A stretch of DNA of 64,000 nt, taken from contig NZ_QCXS01000002.1 in assembly GCF_003260015.1 (NCBI RefSeq), positions 1,240,001 through 1,304,000 on the forward strand, written 5' to 3'. The notes beneath the pieces are model-generated. The model ran no database searches and was not told the DNA's origin. It saw only the letters and a program-made list of their open reading frames with translations. A program made the translations under genes and the position numbers. Positions within the stretch are counted from its first letter, which is position 1, and each line of letters starts with the position of its first letter. The DNA comes from Nakamurella deserti (GTDB taxonomy: Bacteria; Actinomycetota; Actinomycetes; Mycobacteriales; Nakamurellaceae). Shown piece by piece: positions 16,240 to 37,970 of the stretch.

Positions 16240-17187
16240 TCAGCCGTAGTGGGCCAGCGCCGCCCGCGCCCGACGGCCCACCTCGGCGGCCAGGTCGGGC
16301 CGGTCCTCGATCACCGCGCCGCCGCCGAGGGACAGCACCTGACGCACGAGCCATTCGTCGCTGGACGGCCGCATCCGGACCCGCAGCCGGCCGGCCGGAC
16401 CGCCGGGCAGCTCCTCCGCCTGGTAGTACTCGGCGAACCAGCGCAGCTCCGGGTCCAGCGCCACCGTCACCGACGGGACCGCCGGGTCGGGGTGGAACAT
16501 CTGCTCCGGGACGTCGTCGATCACCAGCAGCGGCTGCTGGGCGGGTTCGTCGAGCAGCCTGATCTCCTCGATCCGGTCCACCCGGAAGTGCCGGATCGCC
16601 GAGACCAGGTGGCAGTACGCCTCGAGGTAGGTCTGGCCGTCGGTGACCAGCAGCCGCAGCGGGTCGACGGTGCGCTCGCTGACCGCGTCACGCGACGCCG
16701 TGTAGTAGCGCATCCACAGCTGCCGCCCCTCCTCCAACCCCTCCCGGACGACGCCGAGTGCCGCGGCCGGCGCGGCCGCCTCGACCTGCACGCCCGCGGT
16801 GTCCCCGGCCCCGACCTGCTCCAGCTTCGCCAGCGCCGAGTACACGCTGTCGGCGTCGACCAGCCCGGGCAACCCGGCCAGCGCGCGGAGTGCGACGGTG
16901 AGCGCCACGGCTTCGTCGTGGGTGAGCCGCACCGGCCGCTCCAGGCCGGCGTCGAAGGTGATCGACACGGTGGCGCTGTCCTCGGACAGCACGACGTCGA
17001 TGAGGTCGTCGGGGTAGTACCCGGGCAACCCGCACACCATCAGAAGGTCCAGGTCCTTCTGGATCTGGGCGGCGCTGACCCCGAACTCACCGGCCAGGTC
17101 GGCGATGGCGATGCCGGGACGGCGGGAGATGTAGGGCACCAGCGCCAGCACGCGGGCCAGCCGATCGGTGGCGGATTCGCTGATCAC
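16240..17187 (-). CDS. pafC: PafC, WYL-domain DNA-damage regulator
   Basis: A protein of 315 aa from GTG 17187, which overlaps the pafB stop by 4 bp (GTGA) with GAGGAG upstream, so translation is coupled. The N-terminal HTH is GIAIADLAGEFGVSAAQIQK. The WYL domain follows in the C-terminal half (LRLLVTDGQTYLEAYCH), ending in a WCX-type tail. In mycobacteria PafB and PafC form a heterodimer that activates the LexA-independent DNA-damage regulon, with the WYL domain proposed to sense single-stranded DNA. Candidate target promoters occur in this same window at uvrA and uvrB. Confidence 0.95.
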   Translation of the reverse strand: MISESATDRLARVLALVPYISRRPGIAIADLAGEFGVSAAQIQKDLDLLMVCGLPGYYPDDLIDVVLSEDSATVSITFDAGLERPVRLTHDEAVALTVALRALAGLPGLVDADSVYSALAKLEQVGAGDTAGVQVEAAAPAAALGVVREGLEEGRQLWMRYYTASRDAVSERTVDPLRLLVTDGQTYLEAYCHLVSAIRHFRVDRIEEIRLLDEPAQQPLLVIDDVPEQMFHPDPAVPSVTVALDPELRWFAEYYQAEELPGGPAGRLRVRMRPSSDEWLVRQVLSLGGGAVIEDRPDLAAEVGRRARAALAHYG

Positions 17188-18206
17188 GACAACTCCTCGT
17201 CGATCCCGTCCAGCGGTGGGACCACCGGCAGGTCCGGCGCGGCGGTCGCCGCGGCGTCGGTCAGCAGCCGGATGACGGCGTCGCGCAGGTCGGCCGGGGA
17301 CTCGACCACGGCGTCGGCCCCCAGCGCGGCGACCGAGCGGGCGGTGTCCCACAGGTGGTCCACGGACACGGTCAGCCGGTCGAACCCGGGCCGCGTCGCG
17401 CTGTCCCCGGCGGGAGTGGCGCGGCGGCGCAGCCCCGCACCCGCACCGACGGCCAGCTGCACCACGGCGTCGCGGACCTGGGGCGCGGGTTGCGACCCGG
17501 CGACGGCTGCGAGCAGGTCGACGTCGGCCGGGATGGTCACCGCGCCGGACCGGCCGACCCGGGCGACCTCGCCGGCGATCCGGGACAGCCGGAACGTGCG
17601 CTGCTCGCCGCGGGCGACGTCGCGGCCCACCACGTACCAGCGGCCCTTCCAGCTGACCAGCCCCCAGGGCTGCACCCTACGGGTCTCGACGGCCCCGGCC
17701 GGATCCTTGCGGTAGGGGAAGGTGACCGCCTGCCGGGCCTGCACGGCCGCGTACAGCGGACCGAACGCCGGGTCGGAGGTGCGCACCCGCGGCTGTAGCG
17801 CGAGCCGCGGTCCGGCGAGCTGATCGCCGCTGGCGTCGGCCAGCTTGCGCAGCGCACCCGACCCGGCCTCCCCGAGGACGCTGGTCTCCCAGAGCCGTCC
17901 GGCGAGGGCCAGGGCCGCCTTCTCACCCGGCGTGAACGACATCTCGGGCAGCGCGTACTCCCCCGGCGGGATTCGGTAGGCGCCGTCGGCCGACGTCTGC
18001 AGAGGGATGCCGAGGTCGCGCAGCTCGACCTTGTCGCGCTCGAACATCCGGAAGAAGGCCTCGTCGTTGGCCGCGTCGCGATAGCCCTCGACCTTCTCCC
18101 GGATCCAGCTGACGTCGCGGAACCGGGCGGAGTTCAGCAGCGCGATCACCAGGTTCAGCAGCCGCTCCGCCTTCGCCGCGGACTTACCCGACGGCACGTG
18201 CACCAC
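17184..18206 (-). CDS. pafB: PafB, WYL-domain DNA-damage regulator
   Basis: A protein of 340 aa. The N-terminal winged helix (KAERLLNLVIALLNSARFRD and WIREKVEGY) is followed by a WYL domain (RRVQPWGLVSWKGRWYVVGR, with arginines in RTFRLSRIAG) and a C-terminal WCX region. It partners PafC. The start is GTG 18206, 3 bp after the pafA stop; GTG codons at 18203 and 18197 are alternatives. The tight pafA-pafB-pafC spacing indicates one operon driven from the pafA promoter. Confidence 0.94.
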   Translation of the reverse strand: MVHVPSGKSAAKAERLLNLVIALLNSARFRDVSWIREKVEGYRDAANDEAFFRMFERDKVELRDLGIPLQTSADGAYRIPPGEYALPEMSFTPGEKAALALAGRLWETSVLGEAGSGALRKLADASGDQLAGPRLALQPRVRTSDPAFGPLYAAVQARQAVTFPYRKDPAGAVETRRVQPWGLVSWKGRWYVVGRDVARGEQRTFRLSRIAGEVARVGRSGAVTIPADVDLLAAVAGSQPAPQVRDAVVQLAVGAGAGLRRRATPAGDSATRPGFDRLTVSVDHLWDTARSVAALGADAVVESPADLRDAVIRLLTDAAATAAPDLPVVPPLDGIDEELS

Positions 18207-18209
18207 CCA

Positions 18210-19568
18210 CTAGATCGACTCGATCAGCTTGTCGACCCGGTCGTCGATGGACTTGAACGGGTCCTTCAACAGCACGGTGCGCTGCGCCTGGTCGTTGAGC
18301 TTGAGGTGCACCCAGTCGACGGTGTAGTCCCGGCCGGCGTCCTGGGCGGCGGCGACGAACTTCCCGCGGAGCTTGGCCCGGGTGGTCTGCGGCGGCACCG
18401 TCATCGCCTCCTCGATCCGCGCCTCGTCGACGACGGTGCGGGCCATCCCGCGGGCGGCCAGCAGCGAGTAGAGCCCGCGGCCGGGCCGGACGTCGTGATA
18501 GGCCAGGTCGATCTGGGCGACCCGGGGGCTGGTCAGCTCGAGCTGGTTCTTCTCCGCGTACCGGTCGATGAGCTTCTTCTTGATGACCCAGTCGATCTCG
18601 GTGTCCACGCCCGACAGGTCGCCGGTCTCCACCGCGCGCAGCGTGCGGCCCCACAGGTCCATCACCTGGTCGGTGACCGGGTCGCTGCCGCGGACGGCGA
18701 CGAAGTCGACCGCCCGCTGGTAGTAGTCCAGCTGCGCGTCCAGTGCGCTGATCACGCCGCCGCCGGCCAGCTTGACCTCCTTGCGGCCGGTCAGGTCGTT
18801 GGAGATCTCGCGGATGGCCCGGATGGGGTTCTCGAAGGTGAAGTCGCGCAGCGCCACCCCGGCCTCGATCATCTCCAGCACCAGCGCGGCCGACCCCACC
18901 TTCAGCAGCGTGGTCGTCTGGCTCATGTTGGAGTCACCGACGATGACGTGCAGCCGGCGGAACCGCTCCGCGTCGGCGTGCGGCTCGTCGCGGGTGTTGA
19001 TGATCGGCCGGGAGCGGGTGGTCGCCGACGAGACGCCCTCCCAGATGTGCTCGGCGCGCTGGGACAGGCAGTACGTCGCACCGCGTGGGGTCTGCAGCAC
19101 CTTGCCGGCCCCGACGATGAGCTGCCGGGTGACCAGGAACGGGATCAGCCCGTCGGAGATCCGGGAGAACTCGCCCTGCCGCGCGATGAGGAAGTTCTCG
19201 TGGCAGCCGTAGGAGTTGCCTGCCGAGTCGGTGTTGTTCTTGAACAGGTAGATGTCGCCGCCGACACCCTCCTCCTGCAGCCGCGCCTCGGCGTCGACCA
19301 CCAGGTCCTGCAGGATCCGCTCGCCGGCCTTGTCGTGGGCGATCAGCGAGTACAGGTCGTCGCACTCGGCGGTGGCGTACTCGGGGTGCGAGCCGACGTC
19401 CAGGTAGAGCCGACTGCCGTTGCGCAGGAAGACGTTCGACGACCGTCCCCACGACACGACGCGGCGGAAGAGATACCGGGCCACCTCGTCGGGGCTCAGC
19501 CGGCGTTGCCCCTTGAAGGTGCAGGTGATCCCGAACTCGGTCTCGATACCCATGATTCGGCGCTGCAT
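18210..19568 (-). CDS. pafA: PafA, Pup-protein ligase
   Basis: A protein of 452 aa. It attaches the C-terminal glutamate of Pup to substrate lysines using ATP, in the cytosol. The glutamine-synthetase-like fold shows its catalytic features: the start [16 protein letters not shown] (Glu9 and Glu11 as nucleotide/metal ligands), Asp57 in [35 protein letters not shown], and [10 protein letters not shown] with the basic LHVIVGDSN. It lacks the Dop-specific loop, which separates it from dop in this window. Start ATG 19568 is 7 nt after TAGGGT, suggesting a leaderless transcript. Unlike in M. tuberculosis, pafA is separated from prcBA by a 12 kb accessory block. Confidence 0.97.
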
Positions 19569-31746: not shown

Positions 31747-32571
31747 TCAGCCCTCGAACGGCGCTTCGTCCGGGCCGCGGACACCCTCGGGTGTCGCACC
31801 CCCGGCCGCCGGTGCGTCACCGGGCACGCCCGGCAACGCCGGCTGCTCGTCGACGGGCGGCGGCGCGACGTCATCGGTCGGCGGCGCGAGCAGCAGATCC
31901 AGCTCGGCACCGGCGATCCGCCGGAAGGTCCGCCCGGTGCGGCGCCGGTCCAGCACCGCCACCTCCAGCTGCGCGCCGGTCAGGGTGCGCGGCGCACTGT
32001 CACCGACGGTGCCCAGCGCGGTCGCGGCCGACCGCAGGGCCACCCCGAGCGACCAGCCGGCGGTGAACGACTCGCGCATCGACGCGACCACGGGCTCGGT
32101 GGTGCCACCCATCACCAGGAACGTCGTCTCGTCGGAGATCGAACCGTCGTAGGAGATCTGGTACAGCTGGTCGACGCCGCCGTTCTCGGCCACCTCGCCG
32201 ACGCAGATGCCGACCTCGAACGGCTTCTGGTGCTCGGAGAAGATCGAGCCGAGCGTCTGGGCGTAGGCGTTGGCCAGCCACCGCCCCGTGACGTCCCGGC
32301 GGTCGTAGGAGTACCCGCGCACGTCGGCGAGCCGGATACCGGCCGTCCGGAGGTTCTCGAACTCGTTGTAGCGCCCCACCGCGGCGAACCCGAGGCGGTC
32401 GTAGATCTCGCTGACCTTGTGCAGGCTCGGCGAGTGGTTCTCGGCGACGAACAGCACACCGTCGGCGAAGGTGGTGGCGATGACGCTCCGGCCCCGGGCG
32501 ATGCCCTTGCGGGCGTACTCGGAGCGGTCGCGCATGAACTGCTCGGGCGACGCGTAGATCGGCATGGACAT
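31747..32571 (-). CDS. prcA: Proteasome alpha subunit PrcA
   Basis: A protein of 274 aa from ATG 32571; ATG 32565 is two codons later. The N-terminal gate and H0 helix ([20 protein letters not shown]) match actinobacterial PrcA, which forms the outer rings of the 20S proteasome. The fold continues with [20 protein letters not shown]. The C-terminus has a proline/acid-rich extension of about 45 residues that lies outside the core. It follows prcB by 43 bp, whereas these genes often overlap. Confidence 0.96.
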
Positions 32572-32614: not shown

Positions 32615-33476
32615 TCAGCCACCCGGCCGTTGCAGTCGGCCGGCGACGACCGCCTCGGACACCCGGCCCACCTCGGCGGCCGGCAGCTTCACGGCACCCA
32701 CGGCGGTCATCACCACGACGCTCGGGTAGATCCGACGGGCGAGATCGGGCCCGCCGGTGGCGGAATCGTCGTCGGCGGCGTCGTAGAGCGCCTCGACGGC
32801 GGCGCGGACGGCGCCGGCCTCGTCGGCCTGGGGATCGTGCCGCTTCTTCAGGGCCGAACGCGCGAACACCGACCCGGACCCGACGGCGTGGTAGTCGTTC
32901 TCCTCGTAGCGGCCGCCCGCCACGTCGTAGGAGTAGATCCGGCCGGGCCGCAGGGACTCGTCGTTCTGCGCCAGCCGGGCCGCGGCCCGGTCGGTGTCGT
33001 ACCCGGCGAAGAGCGGGACCACGGCGAGCCCCTGCATCGCCGCACCGAGGTTGCCGCGGATCATGGCGGCCAGCCGGTTCGACTTGCCGTCCAGCGACAG
33101 CCGGACACCCTCGATCTTCTCGTAGTGCTCGAGCTCCAACTGGAACAACCGGACCATCTCGACCGCGAGGCCCGCGGTGCCGGCGATGCCGACCGCGGAG
33201 AACGAGTCGGTGACGAAGACCTTCTCGATGTCGCGCTGGGCGATCATCGGCCCCATGGTCGCCCGGCGGTCACCGGCCATCACGACCCCGTCGGCGAAGG
33301 TCAGCGCGACGATCGTGGTGCCGTGCGGGAGTTCGGGGACCACCCCGGGCGAGCCGGCCGCGCCGCGCCCCGGCAGCAGCTGCGGCTCCGCCTCGGCGAT
33401 GAAATCGGTGAACGACCCGGTACCCGGGGGTGAGGTAGCGGGCCGGGACGGCGGACACCGGCCAGGGTGCGGTCAC
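32615..33476 (-). CDS. prcB: Proteasome beta subunit PrcB, reading frame interrupted by +1 shift
   Basis: The catalytic part is intact: [14 protein letters not shown] supplies the N-terminal Thr (codon 33317-33319) exposed by self-cleavage, and the mature chain would be 234 aa. The propeptide segment [16 protein letters not shown] is in the same frame, but that frame is closed by TGA at 33473-33475 with no ATG, GTG, TTG or CTG between. The conserved first part, [18 protein letters not shown], lies one frame over, from GTG 33476. Removing one base in the run of five C (33426-33430) joins them into a normal 286 aa PrcB with a 52-residue propeptide. Sequencing error, mutation or programmed shift are all possible. 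GTG 33343 would give a protein without most of the propeptide. Confidence 0.9.
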
Positions 33477-33525
33477 ACCACACCCCCGGGCGGTGCCGCG
33501 GTCGGGACGACGGGTCGACCGACGA

Positions 33526-33723
33526 TCACTGGCCGCCCTTCTGCACGTACGCGCGCACGAAGTCCTCGGCGTTGGTCTCCAGGACGTCGTCGATCTCGTC
33601 GAGGATGTCGGTGGTGTCGGACGCGAGCTTGTCGCGGCGCTCCTGACCGGCAGCCGAGGAGGCGGCGTCGTCGGCGTCGTCGGAGCCGCCGCCGCCCTGC
33701 CTGGTGGTCTGTTCCTGTGCCAT
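33526..33723 (-). CDS. pup: Prokaryotic ubiquitin-like protein Pup
   Basis: A protein of 65 aa ending GGQ. Pup is disordered, with a helical part that binds the ARC/Mpa coiled coil (DILDEIDDVLETNAEDFVRA here). Ending in Gln means Dop must deamidate it to Glu before PafA can ligate it. The start ATG 33723 has GGAAAGG upstream. It is 105 bp downstream of dop and 49 bp upstream of prcB, the usual dop-pup-prcB-prcA order. Confidence 0.98.
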   Translation of the reverse strand: MAQEQTTRQGGGGSDDADDAASSAAGQERRDKLASDTTDILDEIDDVLETNAEDFVRAYVQKGGQ

Positions 33724-33828: not shown

Positions 33829-35340
33829 TCAGCGCCGGGTGAGCGCCTCGACGAGCTGGACGGCGTCCTCGGCCTCGTCGAGCAACGGCCCGACGTGGGC
33901 CTTCGTCCCCCGGGTGGGCTCGAGGGTGGGGATCCGCACCAGCGACTCCCGGCCGACGTCGAAGATCACCGAGTCCCACGACGCGGCCGCCAGCCGGTCG
34001 GCGTACTGCGAGACGCAGCGCCCCCGGAAGTAGGCGCGGGTGTCCTCCGGCGGGTCGGTGACCGCGGCGAGCACCTCGTTCTCGGTGACGATGCGCTCCA
34101 TGGAGCCGCGCGACACCAACCGGTTGTACAGGCCCTTGTCCAGCCGGACGTCGGAGTACTGCAGGTCGACCATGGCCAGTCGCGGCGCCGCCCAGCCGAG
34201 CCCGTCCCGCTCCCGGAAGCCCTCCAGCAGACGGAGTTTCGCCGGCCAGTCGAGTTCGCCGGCCAACTGCATGGGGTCGACGGCGAGCCGGTCGAGCACG
34301 TCCAGCCAGCGCCGCAGCACGTCGGCGGTCTGCTCGTCGACGTCGTCGCCGTAGGTCGCCTCGACGTAGGCGGCCGCCGACTCGGCGTAGGCGCGCTGCA
34401 CGTCCAGACCGGTGAACTGGCGGCCGTCGGCCAACGGCACCAACGCCGTCAGGCCCGGGTCGTGGGAGATCTGGTGGACCGCCGTGACCGGGGAGGCGAG
34501 CTCGACGGGCGGCATCGGCCAGCCCGATTCGATCATGCTCAGGACGAGCGCCGAGGTGCCCACCTTCAGGTACGTGGCGACCTCGGACAGATTGGCGTCG
34601 CCGATGATCACGTGCAGTCGGCGGTACTTGTCGGCGTCGGCGTGCGGCTCGTCGCGGGTGTTGATGATGCCCCGCTTGAGGGTGGTCTCCAGCCCCACCT
34701 CGACCTCGATGTAGTCACTGCGCTGGGCCAGCTGGTAGCCGTCCCGCTCCCCCTGCGGCCCGATGCCGACCCGGCCGGAGCCGGCGAAGACCTGGCGGGA
34801 GGCGAAGAACGGCAACAACCCGCTGACGATGGCCGGGAACGGGGTGTCGCGCGAGCAGAGGTAGTTCTCGTGGGTGCCGTAGGAGGCGCCCTTGCCGTCG
34901 ACGTTGTTCTTGTACATGTGGATCGGCTTCGCCCCGGGCACCGCGCCGGCCAGCCGCGCCGCGGTCTCCATCACCCGCTCGCCGGCCTTGTCGAAGATCA
35001 CCGCGTCGCGCGGGTTGGTGACCTCGGGCGCGGAGAACTCCGGGTGCGCGTGGTCCACGTACAGCCGCGCACCGTTGCTGAGGATGACGTTCGCCGCGCC
35101 GATGTCGTCCGGGTCCGGCGAGGCGCTGCCGAACAGTCCGGCGAGGTCATAGCCGCGGGCGTCCCGTGACGGGGACTCCACCTCGTAGTCCCACCGCGGG
35201 CGGCGGGCGCGCGGGGCCGCCACGGACGCGGCGTAGGCGAGCACGACGTGGGTCGAGGAGATCACCGGGTTGACCGAGGGCTCGGTCGGGATGGAGATCC
35301 CGTACTCGACCTCGGTGCCCATGATGCGTCGGACGGTCAT
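33829..35340 (-). CDS. dop: Dop, Pup deamidase/depupylase
   Basis: A protein of 503 aa. Same fold as Paf[13 protein letters not shown] with Glu10, catalytic Asp96 in [33 protein letters not shown] and [18 protein letters not shown]. It has the extra Dop-loop (about residues 45-70, [16 protein letters not shown]), which PafA lacks and which marks it as the deamidase. It converts the C-terminal Gln of Pup to Glu and removes Pup from proteins. ATG 35340 lies 6 nt after TAGGTT, suggesting a leaderless transcript. Confidence 0.97.
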
Positions 35341-36164: not shown

Positions 36165-37925
36165 CTAGAGGTACTGGCCGGTGTTGGCTGCGGTGTCGAT
36201 GGACCGCGAACCCTCGGAGTTCTTACCCGAGACCAGGGTGCGGATGTAGACGATCCGCTCCCCCTTCTTGCCCGAGATCCGCGCCCAGTCGTCCGGGTTC
36301 GTGGTGTTGGGCAGGTCCTCGTTCTCGGCGAACTCGTCGACGATGGCGTCCATCAGCTGCGACACCCGCAGACCGCTGGTGCCGTACTCGATCTTGCTCT
36401 TGATCGCCGCCTTCTTGGCCCGGTCGACGATGTTCTGGATCATCGCTCCGGAGTTGAAGTCCTTGAAGTACAGGACCTCCTTGTCGCCGTTGGCGTAGGT
36501 CACCTCGAGGAAGCGGTTCTCCTCGGTCTCGGTGTACATCCGCTCGACGGTCGTCTGGATCATCGCCTGGATGGTGCCCTGACGGTCGCCGCCGAACTCG
36601 GCGAGATCCTCGGCGTTGATGGGCAGCTCGGCCGTGAGGTACTTGGAGAAGATGTCCCGGGCGGACTCGGCGTCCGGCCGTTCGATCTTGATCTTCACGT
36701 CGAGCCGGCCGGGCCGCAGGATGGCCGGGTCGATCATGTCCTCACGGTTGGAGGCGCCGATGACGATGACGTTCTCCAGGCCCTCGACGCCGTCGATCTC
36801 GCTGAGCAGCTGCGGGACGATCGTCGTCTCAACGTCGCTAGACACGCCCGACCCGCGGGTCCGGAAGATCGAGTCCATCTCGTCGAAGAAGACGATGACC
36901 GGGGTGCCGTCGGACGCCTTCTCGCGGGCCCGCTGGAAGATCAGCCGGATGGTCCGCTCGGTCTCGCCGACGTACTTGTTGAGCAGCTCCGGTCCCTTGA
37001 TGTTGAGGAAGTAGCTGGTCATGTGCTCGAGCCCCCGCGCCGCGGCGATCTTCTTGGCCAGCGAGTTCGCGACCGCCTTGGCGATCAGCGTCTTGCCGCA
37101 GCCGGGCGGGCCGTAGAGCAGCACACCCTTCGGCGGCCGCAGCTGGTACTCGCGGAACAGCTCCTTGTGTAGGAACGGCAGCTCCACCGCGTCGCGGATC
37201 TGCTCGATCTGCCGTTGCAGCCCGCCGATGTCGCTGTAGTCGACGTCCGGCACCTCCTCGAGGACGAGGTCCTCGACCTCGGCCTTGGGCACCTTCTCGT
37301 AGGCGTAGCCCGCCTTGGAGTCCACCAGCAGCGAGTCTCCGGGCTTGAGCGACTGCTCCAGCAGCGGCGCCGCGAGCCGGACGACCCGCTCCTCGTCGGC
37401 GTGCCCGACCACCAGCGCCCGATCGCCGCCGAGCACCTCGCGCAGACTGCTGACCTCGCCGACCAGCTCGAAGGAGCCACCCTCGACCACGGTCAGCGCC
37501 TCGTTGAGCCGCAGCTGCTGACCGGGGGTCAGCTCGGCGACGGTCACCGACGGAGATGCGGCGAGCCGCATCCGGCGGCCGGACGTGTAGACCTCGACCG
37601 TGCCCTCGGGACCGGCCTCGATGAAGACGCCGTAGCCGCTGGGCGGCTGGGCGAGCCGGTCGACCTCCTCCTTCAACTGCAGGAGCTGGCTGCGCGCGTC
37701 GCGCAGGGTCGTCACGAGCTTCTCGTTGCGCTCGGACAGGGCCTCGACCTGGGCCTGGGCCTCGGTGAGACGCCGTTCGAGCGGACGGGTGTCGGCTCCG
37801 GAGCCCGCCAACCGGCGGCGGGCCACGGTGAGTTCCTCGTTGAGTGCGCGGATGTGTGCGCGCAACTCGTCGGTGTTTGCCTGGGTGGCGTCCGAACGTC
37901 CCCCAGTTGGTCCCATATCGGGCAT
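36165..37925 (-). CDS. arc: Proteasomal AAA+ ATPase ARC/Mpa
   Basis: A protein of 586 aa from ATG 37925 with AAGGGGG upstream; GTG 37940 is in frame. An N-terminal coiled coil (about 25-95, [20 protein letters not shown]) binds Pup. Two OB domains form the ring. The AAA module has Walker [10 protein letters not shown], the Walker B acidic pair FFDEMDS and sensor GASNRED. The C-terminus is GQYL, the penultimate-Tyr motif that docks into and opens the proteasome. It unfolds pupylated proteins into PrcAB. The C-terminal motif and the neighbourhood leave little doubt. Confidence 0.97.
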
Positions 37926-37970
37926 CGGGGCCCCCTTCACCTGGCGGCACGGATCACTGGCCGCCTGTTC

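Follow-up and report, generated by a model that had tools for sequence, protein, structure and literature searches.

Does the prcB gene of Nakamurella deserti, an environmental actinobacterium, really carry a frameshift in its propeptide, and could the gene still be of use if it does? The question arises from a stretch of 64,000 nucleotides of this genome (hereafter the window), in which the initial annotation, made from the sequence alone, described prcB as split by one base inside its propeptide. We read the frames directly and compared the gene with 96 other loci, all of which are intact, and the description holds.

One gene in two reading frames

The PrcB catalytic frame can be read directly from GTG 33343 (32615..33343, minus strand), and its mature domain passes the profile scan with TIGR03690 (20S_bact_beta), scoring 355.5 bits (cut-off 191.9). 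Thr1 after the Gly processing site is present in this frame, as are Asp17 and Lys33, which we take to be catalytic residues of PrcB. Upstream of GTG 33343, the same frame continues through the remaining propeptide (33344..33418, minus strand), including its conserved center, the central box. The box was placed by eye and corresponds to region II as given in an earlier study (PMC7210456). TGA 33475-33473 closes the catalytic frame on direct reading of the minus strand, as first reported, and there is indeed no start codon 5′ of the propeptide segment. That account has to be completed by GTG 33343, which does precede Thr1. This is the single ATG, GTG, or TTG before Thr1 in the catalytic frame, 8 codons upstream, and it would give a pro-sequence of 8 residues, VVPELPHG, followed by TTIVAL... 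The annotation had allowed for an overlooked start that would give a full propeptide in the catalytic frame; there is none, and in the window prcB no start codon opens a long in-frame propeptide.

The conserved PrcB N-terminus lies in the neighboring frame and starts at GTG 33476 (33426..33476, minus strand), again in agreement with the initial annotation. The annotation had likened this region to Streptomyces PrcB starts; the closest relatives found are not Streptomyces but congeners (16 Nakamurella genomes), with PrcB identities of 69–78%. Translation from GTG 33476 passes through the conserved N-terminal segment into YRVVH... out of frame and ends at a stop whose last base is 33270. The two starts differ in their upstream sequences. 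GTG 33476 is preceded by a strong Shine-Dalgarno-like sequence (−12.5 kcal/mol, at least as strong as in 98% of 443 called starts) and GTG 33343 by a weak one (−2.8 kcal/mol, at least as strong as in 23% of the 443). Initiation would therefore favor the frame that does not reach the catalytic domain.

The surplus base lies in the stretch 33419..33430 of the minus strand (CCCCCGGGTACC), where a C run (33430-33426) adjoins a G run (33425-33423). The run of five C is as originally described, but the surplus base does not belong uniquely to it. At least two placements within 33430-33419 account for the split equally well, and the exact base is not determinable from the sequence. Deletion of one base restores, by arithmetic, a PrcB of 286 amino acids, as had been calculated. 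Readthrough of the stop codon at TGA 33475-33473 was rejected, as the translation downstream of it is not the conserved peptide.

The split among prcB loci

A comparison with related genomes had been called for beforehand, and we compared 97 prcB loci: the window (L003), 16 congeners, and 80 named actinobacterial loci, which are the best 80 of 564 relatives, with the possibility that rarer split copies occur elsewhere. In an alignment test, 96 of 96 other loci had an in-frame start 40 or more codons ahead of Thr1, together with the SF of the propeptide center, and the window did not. This test on all 97 loci replaces the figures of an initial strict motif pattern, which had flagged 25 of 73 loci (24 besides the window). 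A stricter pattern test was passed by 88 of 97 loci; the nine exceptions are the window and eight loci with a variant spelling, which are in frame by eye. The congener L005 has identical CCCCCGGG letters at the split site, yet its prcB is in frame. As far as seen among these 97 loci, the frame split appears to be private to the window genome.

In a survey of the class to which the window belongs, 309 of 394 genomes had a match to a PrcB query, suggesting that loss of the core is not the rule in this class. The survey is blind to the split, as it takes even the split gene of the window for a single open frame, and its matches (150 loci among those listed, 149 besides the window) were not used on this point. 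A search of the accessible literature found no paper combining frameshift, prcB, and actinobacteria, and no title on a split bacterial prcB was among the matches listed for prcB, frameshift, proteasome, and propeptide.

The N. deserti genome (4,625,266 bases in 6 contigs, 99.55% completeness) contains two PF00227 genes, prcB and prcA, and thus no spare prcB. Of 99 positions without variation among the 16 other congener copies, its mature PrcB keeps 98, and its tip branch of 0.128 is mid-range for the congeners (0.020–0.198). Both halves of the propeptide also resemble their congener counterparts. Relaxed selection would point to an old loss, and the mature PrcB bears no sign of it in its invariant positions or in its unremarkable tip branch. 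Since the mature part is as conserved as in the congeners, the shift is recent or technical, and decay of prcB, judged from these alignments, has not begun.

Mutation, sequence error, or use of the split

The quality of the assembly bears on the choice between a recent shift and a technical one. A codon-usage frame scan recovered 78 of 103 simulated indels; it misses short N-terminal shifts, including that of prcB itself, which is called from GTG 33343, and its rate does not measure errors of this kind. Over 864 kb of this genome, the scan called 11 shifts automatically, against 10 uncurated calls in 400 kb of the finished genome of N. multipartita. The assembly is not rich in frameshifts by this comparison. 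On inspection by eye, three of the 11 calls are convincing, seven are gene borders or low-complexity stretches, and one is a gene fragment; no evident core gene is among the three convincing shifts. At L108:12571-13205 (plus strand; about 1192571-1193205 of G000:C2), the frame of a gene that looks phosphatase-like by eye breaks at a repeated five-base unit of the GGGAC type in about three copies, possibly a slipped-strand switch or a pseudogene. Homologs of this gene occur in 14 of the 16 congeners, at most one in each, with 34–53% identity over the stretch searched, and this genome has a second homolog on contig C3. At L113:7784-8144 (plus strand), a gene that is glyoxalase-like by eye has an apparent frame break at no obvious homopolymer, and matches to it are present in 3 of 16 congeners. 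The serine-hydrolase-like fragment at L156:15669-16150 (minus strand; by eye) has a frame break and a truncation and looks like a decayed gene. The three convincing shifts, a small sample, suggest a fairly clean assembly that contains natural pseudogenes rather than random errors, which tilts the balance slightly towards a real mutation.

We therefore lean slightly towards a real change, by which prcB was recently lost or weakened, and away from an assembly error. A recent one-base insertion in an ordinary Nakamurella prcB has, in our estimate, an even chance of being the right explanation, and an assembly or sequencing error, by which an ordinary in-frame prcB would have received its surplus base as a consensus mistake in a G+C-rich run, has somewhat less than that. 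An error would account for a split in one of 97 loci, for its position where C and G runs meet, and for the pristine state of both sides, with the mature part under normal constraint. In its favor are also the other scanned genes of the pathway, which are open and above their cut-offs, and the presence of bpa. Against an error stand the completeness of the genome in few contigs and its low frameshift background, together with the nature of the three convincing shifts elsewhere, one of which lies at a five-base repeat (L108) and another at no obvious homopolymer (L113), and none of which hits an evident core gene. The real insertion has to contend with the same comparison, as 0 of 96 other loci have a broken prcB and real breakage must be rare, and with the pristine halves, which an error would also leave. 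The gene has what is expected of a recent pseudogene: an indel that would inactivate it, otherwise good conservation, and intact relatives. Single-frameshift pseudogenes resemble it in these respects, with one indel and halves that are otherwise intact. The event is in either case of an ordinary kind, a one-base frameshift that is private as far as the 97 loci show. It stems from a recent mutation or an error in the sequence, and nothing points to a new mechanism.

The initial annotation had offered assembly error, a real frameshift, and ribosomal shifting at the CCC-GGG junction. The first two stand, whereas shifting finds no support, and purposeful use of the split prcB in any form is, in all, highly improbable. 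Programmed +1 frameshifting at CCC-GGG, which would join the frames and control the dosage of PrcB, is the least credible reading. A +1 step at this site would yield the conserved peptide, and the Shine-Dalgarno sequence of the upstream part looks strong. However, none of the 96 other loci is split, L005 is in frame with the same letters, and the codon pair is common in this genome: 449 called genes (157,349 codons) contain 122 in-frame instances of CCC-GGG and 18 of NCC-CCC-GGG, and GGG makes up 21% of their glycine codons. No stimulating RNA structure was found in the 100 bases downstream, where the fold is no better than that of shuffled sequences (z −0.47; 62 of 200 shuffles as good), and no stimulating Shine-Dalgarno-like element was noticed by eye near the split. 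Slightly less incredible, yet scarcely probable, is a real shift in which useful PrcB is made from GTG 33343, its 8-residue pro-sequence being self-processed at Gly/Thr1. GTG 33343 is in frame and the processing site PHG|TT is kept. According to PMC7210456, assembly does not need the short archaeal propeptides, and particles still formed when the Rhodococcus propeptide was truncated at its N-terminus, with faster dimerization and slower activation. The same source describes the actinobacterial PrcB propeptide as a conserved central box between less conserved outer regions, states that the box lets one β subunit contact two α subunits, and holds that assembly cannot do without the long bacterial propeptide. 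A start at GTG 33343 would lose the central box, its Shine-Dalgarno sequence is weak, and the long propeptide is kept in 96 of 96 other loci. That the split gene is read on purpose by either route, the +1 shift or the restart, giving low or nearly propeptide-free PrcB and a propeptide-independent assembly, seems very unlikely to us.

Under the favored recent insertion, the surplus base would separate the conserved YLTPG part of the propeptide from the conserved SFTDF part. Ribosomes starting at GTG 33476 would go out of frame, as can be read from the sequence, and stop at 33270. No normal PrcB precursor would then be made, and at most a little PrcB may arise from the weakly preceded GTG 33343, without the central box and with almost none of the propeptide. 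The proteasome core would probably cease to function or function far less, with the pupylation genes still in place. The window prcB shares with actinobacterial PrcB (TIGR03690) the catalytic domain, the Thr1 processing site, the propeptide segments, and the gene order, and differs in that its propeptide is split over two frames with no catalytic-frame start before the central box.

Pupylation genes and the pup-prcB spacer

The genes on the minus strand are in the order arc-dop-pup-prcB-prcA, with pafA further on. All five neighbors are open frames that exceed the curated NCBIfam cut-offs: arc, the proteasome ATPase (36165..37940; TIGR03689, 855.5 bits, cut-off 504.75), dop (33829..35340; TIGR03688, 733.8 bits, cut-off 492.3), pup (33526..33723; TIGR03687, 69.6 bits, cut-off 41.45), prcA (31747..32571; TIGR03691, 345.5 bits, cut-off 139.05), and pafA (18210..19568; TIGR03686, 762.1 bits, cut-off 551.3), all on the minus strand. 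Of 17 genomes of the genus, this one included, all 17 have the proteasome activator gene bpa, a finding that fits a recent event and an error alike.

The intactness of pup, dop, prcA, pafA, and arc had been put forward as evidence against simple loss of the pathway. This argument is weak. About half of the sequenced actinobacteria have lost the core-subunit genes and kept the pupylation enzymes, according to a review (PMC6466877). Deletions of the proteasome caused no phenotypic defect in Streptomyces lividans, S. coelicolor, and M. smegmatis, and impaired growth and persistence in M. tuberculosis (PMC2920845). Because core loss is tolerated in several relatives and pupylation is kept in coreless actinobacteria, the intact neighbors do not speak against loss. 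The window would represent a first step towards the coreless state sketched in the review, with the core broken and pup, dop, and pafA kept, and differs from that state in still having prcA and nearly all of prcB in conserved form. If the insertion is real, this genome would offer a snapshot of an actinobacterium at a first step through which the proteasome core may be lost and pupylation retained. It would also be a natural experiment on how well PrcB manages without a propeptide. An assembly error would matter solely as a correction to the record.

The spacer between pup and prcB is the longest among 17 genomes of the genus: the stop of pup and the conserved WP codons are 64 bases apart here and 5–47 bases apart in the others. 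It contains an 18-codon ORF (33473..33529, minus strand), whose GTG 33529 overlaps the pup stop and whose TGA 33475-33473 overlaps GTG 33476 (GTGA). In 13 of 16 congeners (counted by hand), the GTGA overlap at the pup stop supplies a GTG that shares its frame with the conserved prcB segment. The 18-codon ORF looks like the trace of an older move of the prcB start, with translational coupling kept. A start of prcB at GTG 33529, which is in frame with the catalytic part, was rejected, as this frame is interrupted by TGA 33475-33473 and does not carry the conserved segment, which is in the other one.

Two further genes follow pafA on the minus strand, at 17184-18206 and 16240-17352, and the border that the gene caller set between them is doubtful. 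The former (17184-18206) has no NCBIfam match at 0.001. From their position and sequence, we take the two to be probably the PafB and PafC regulators.
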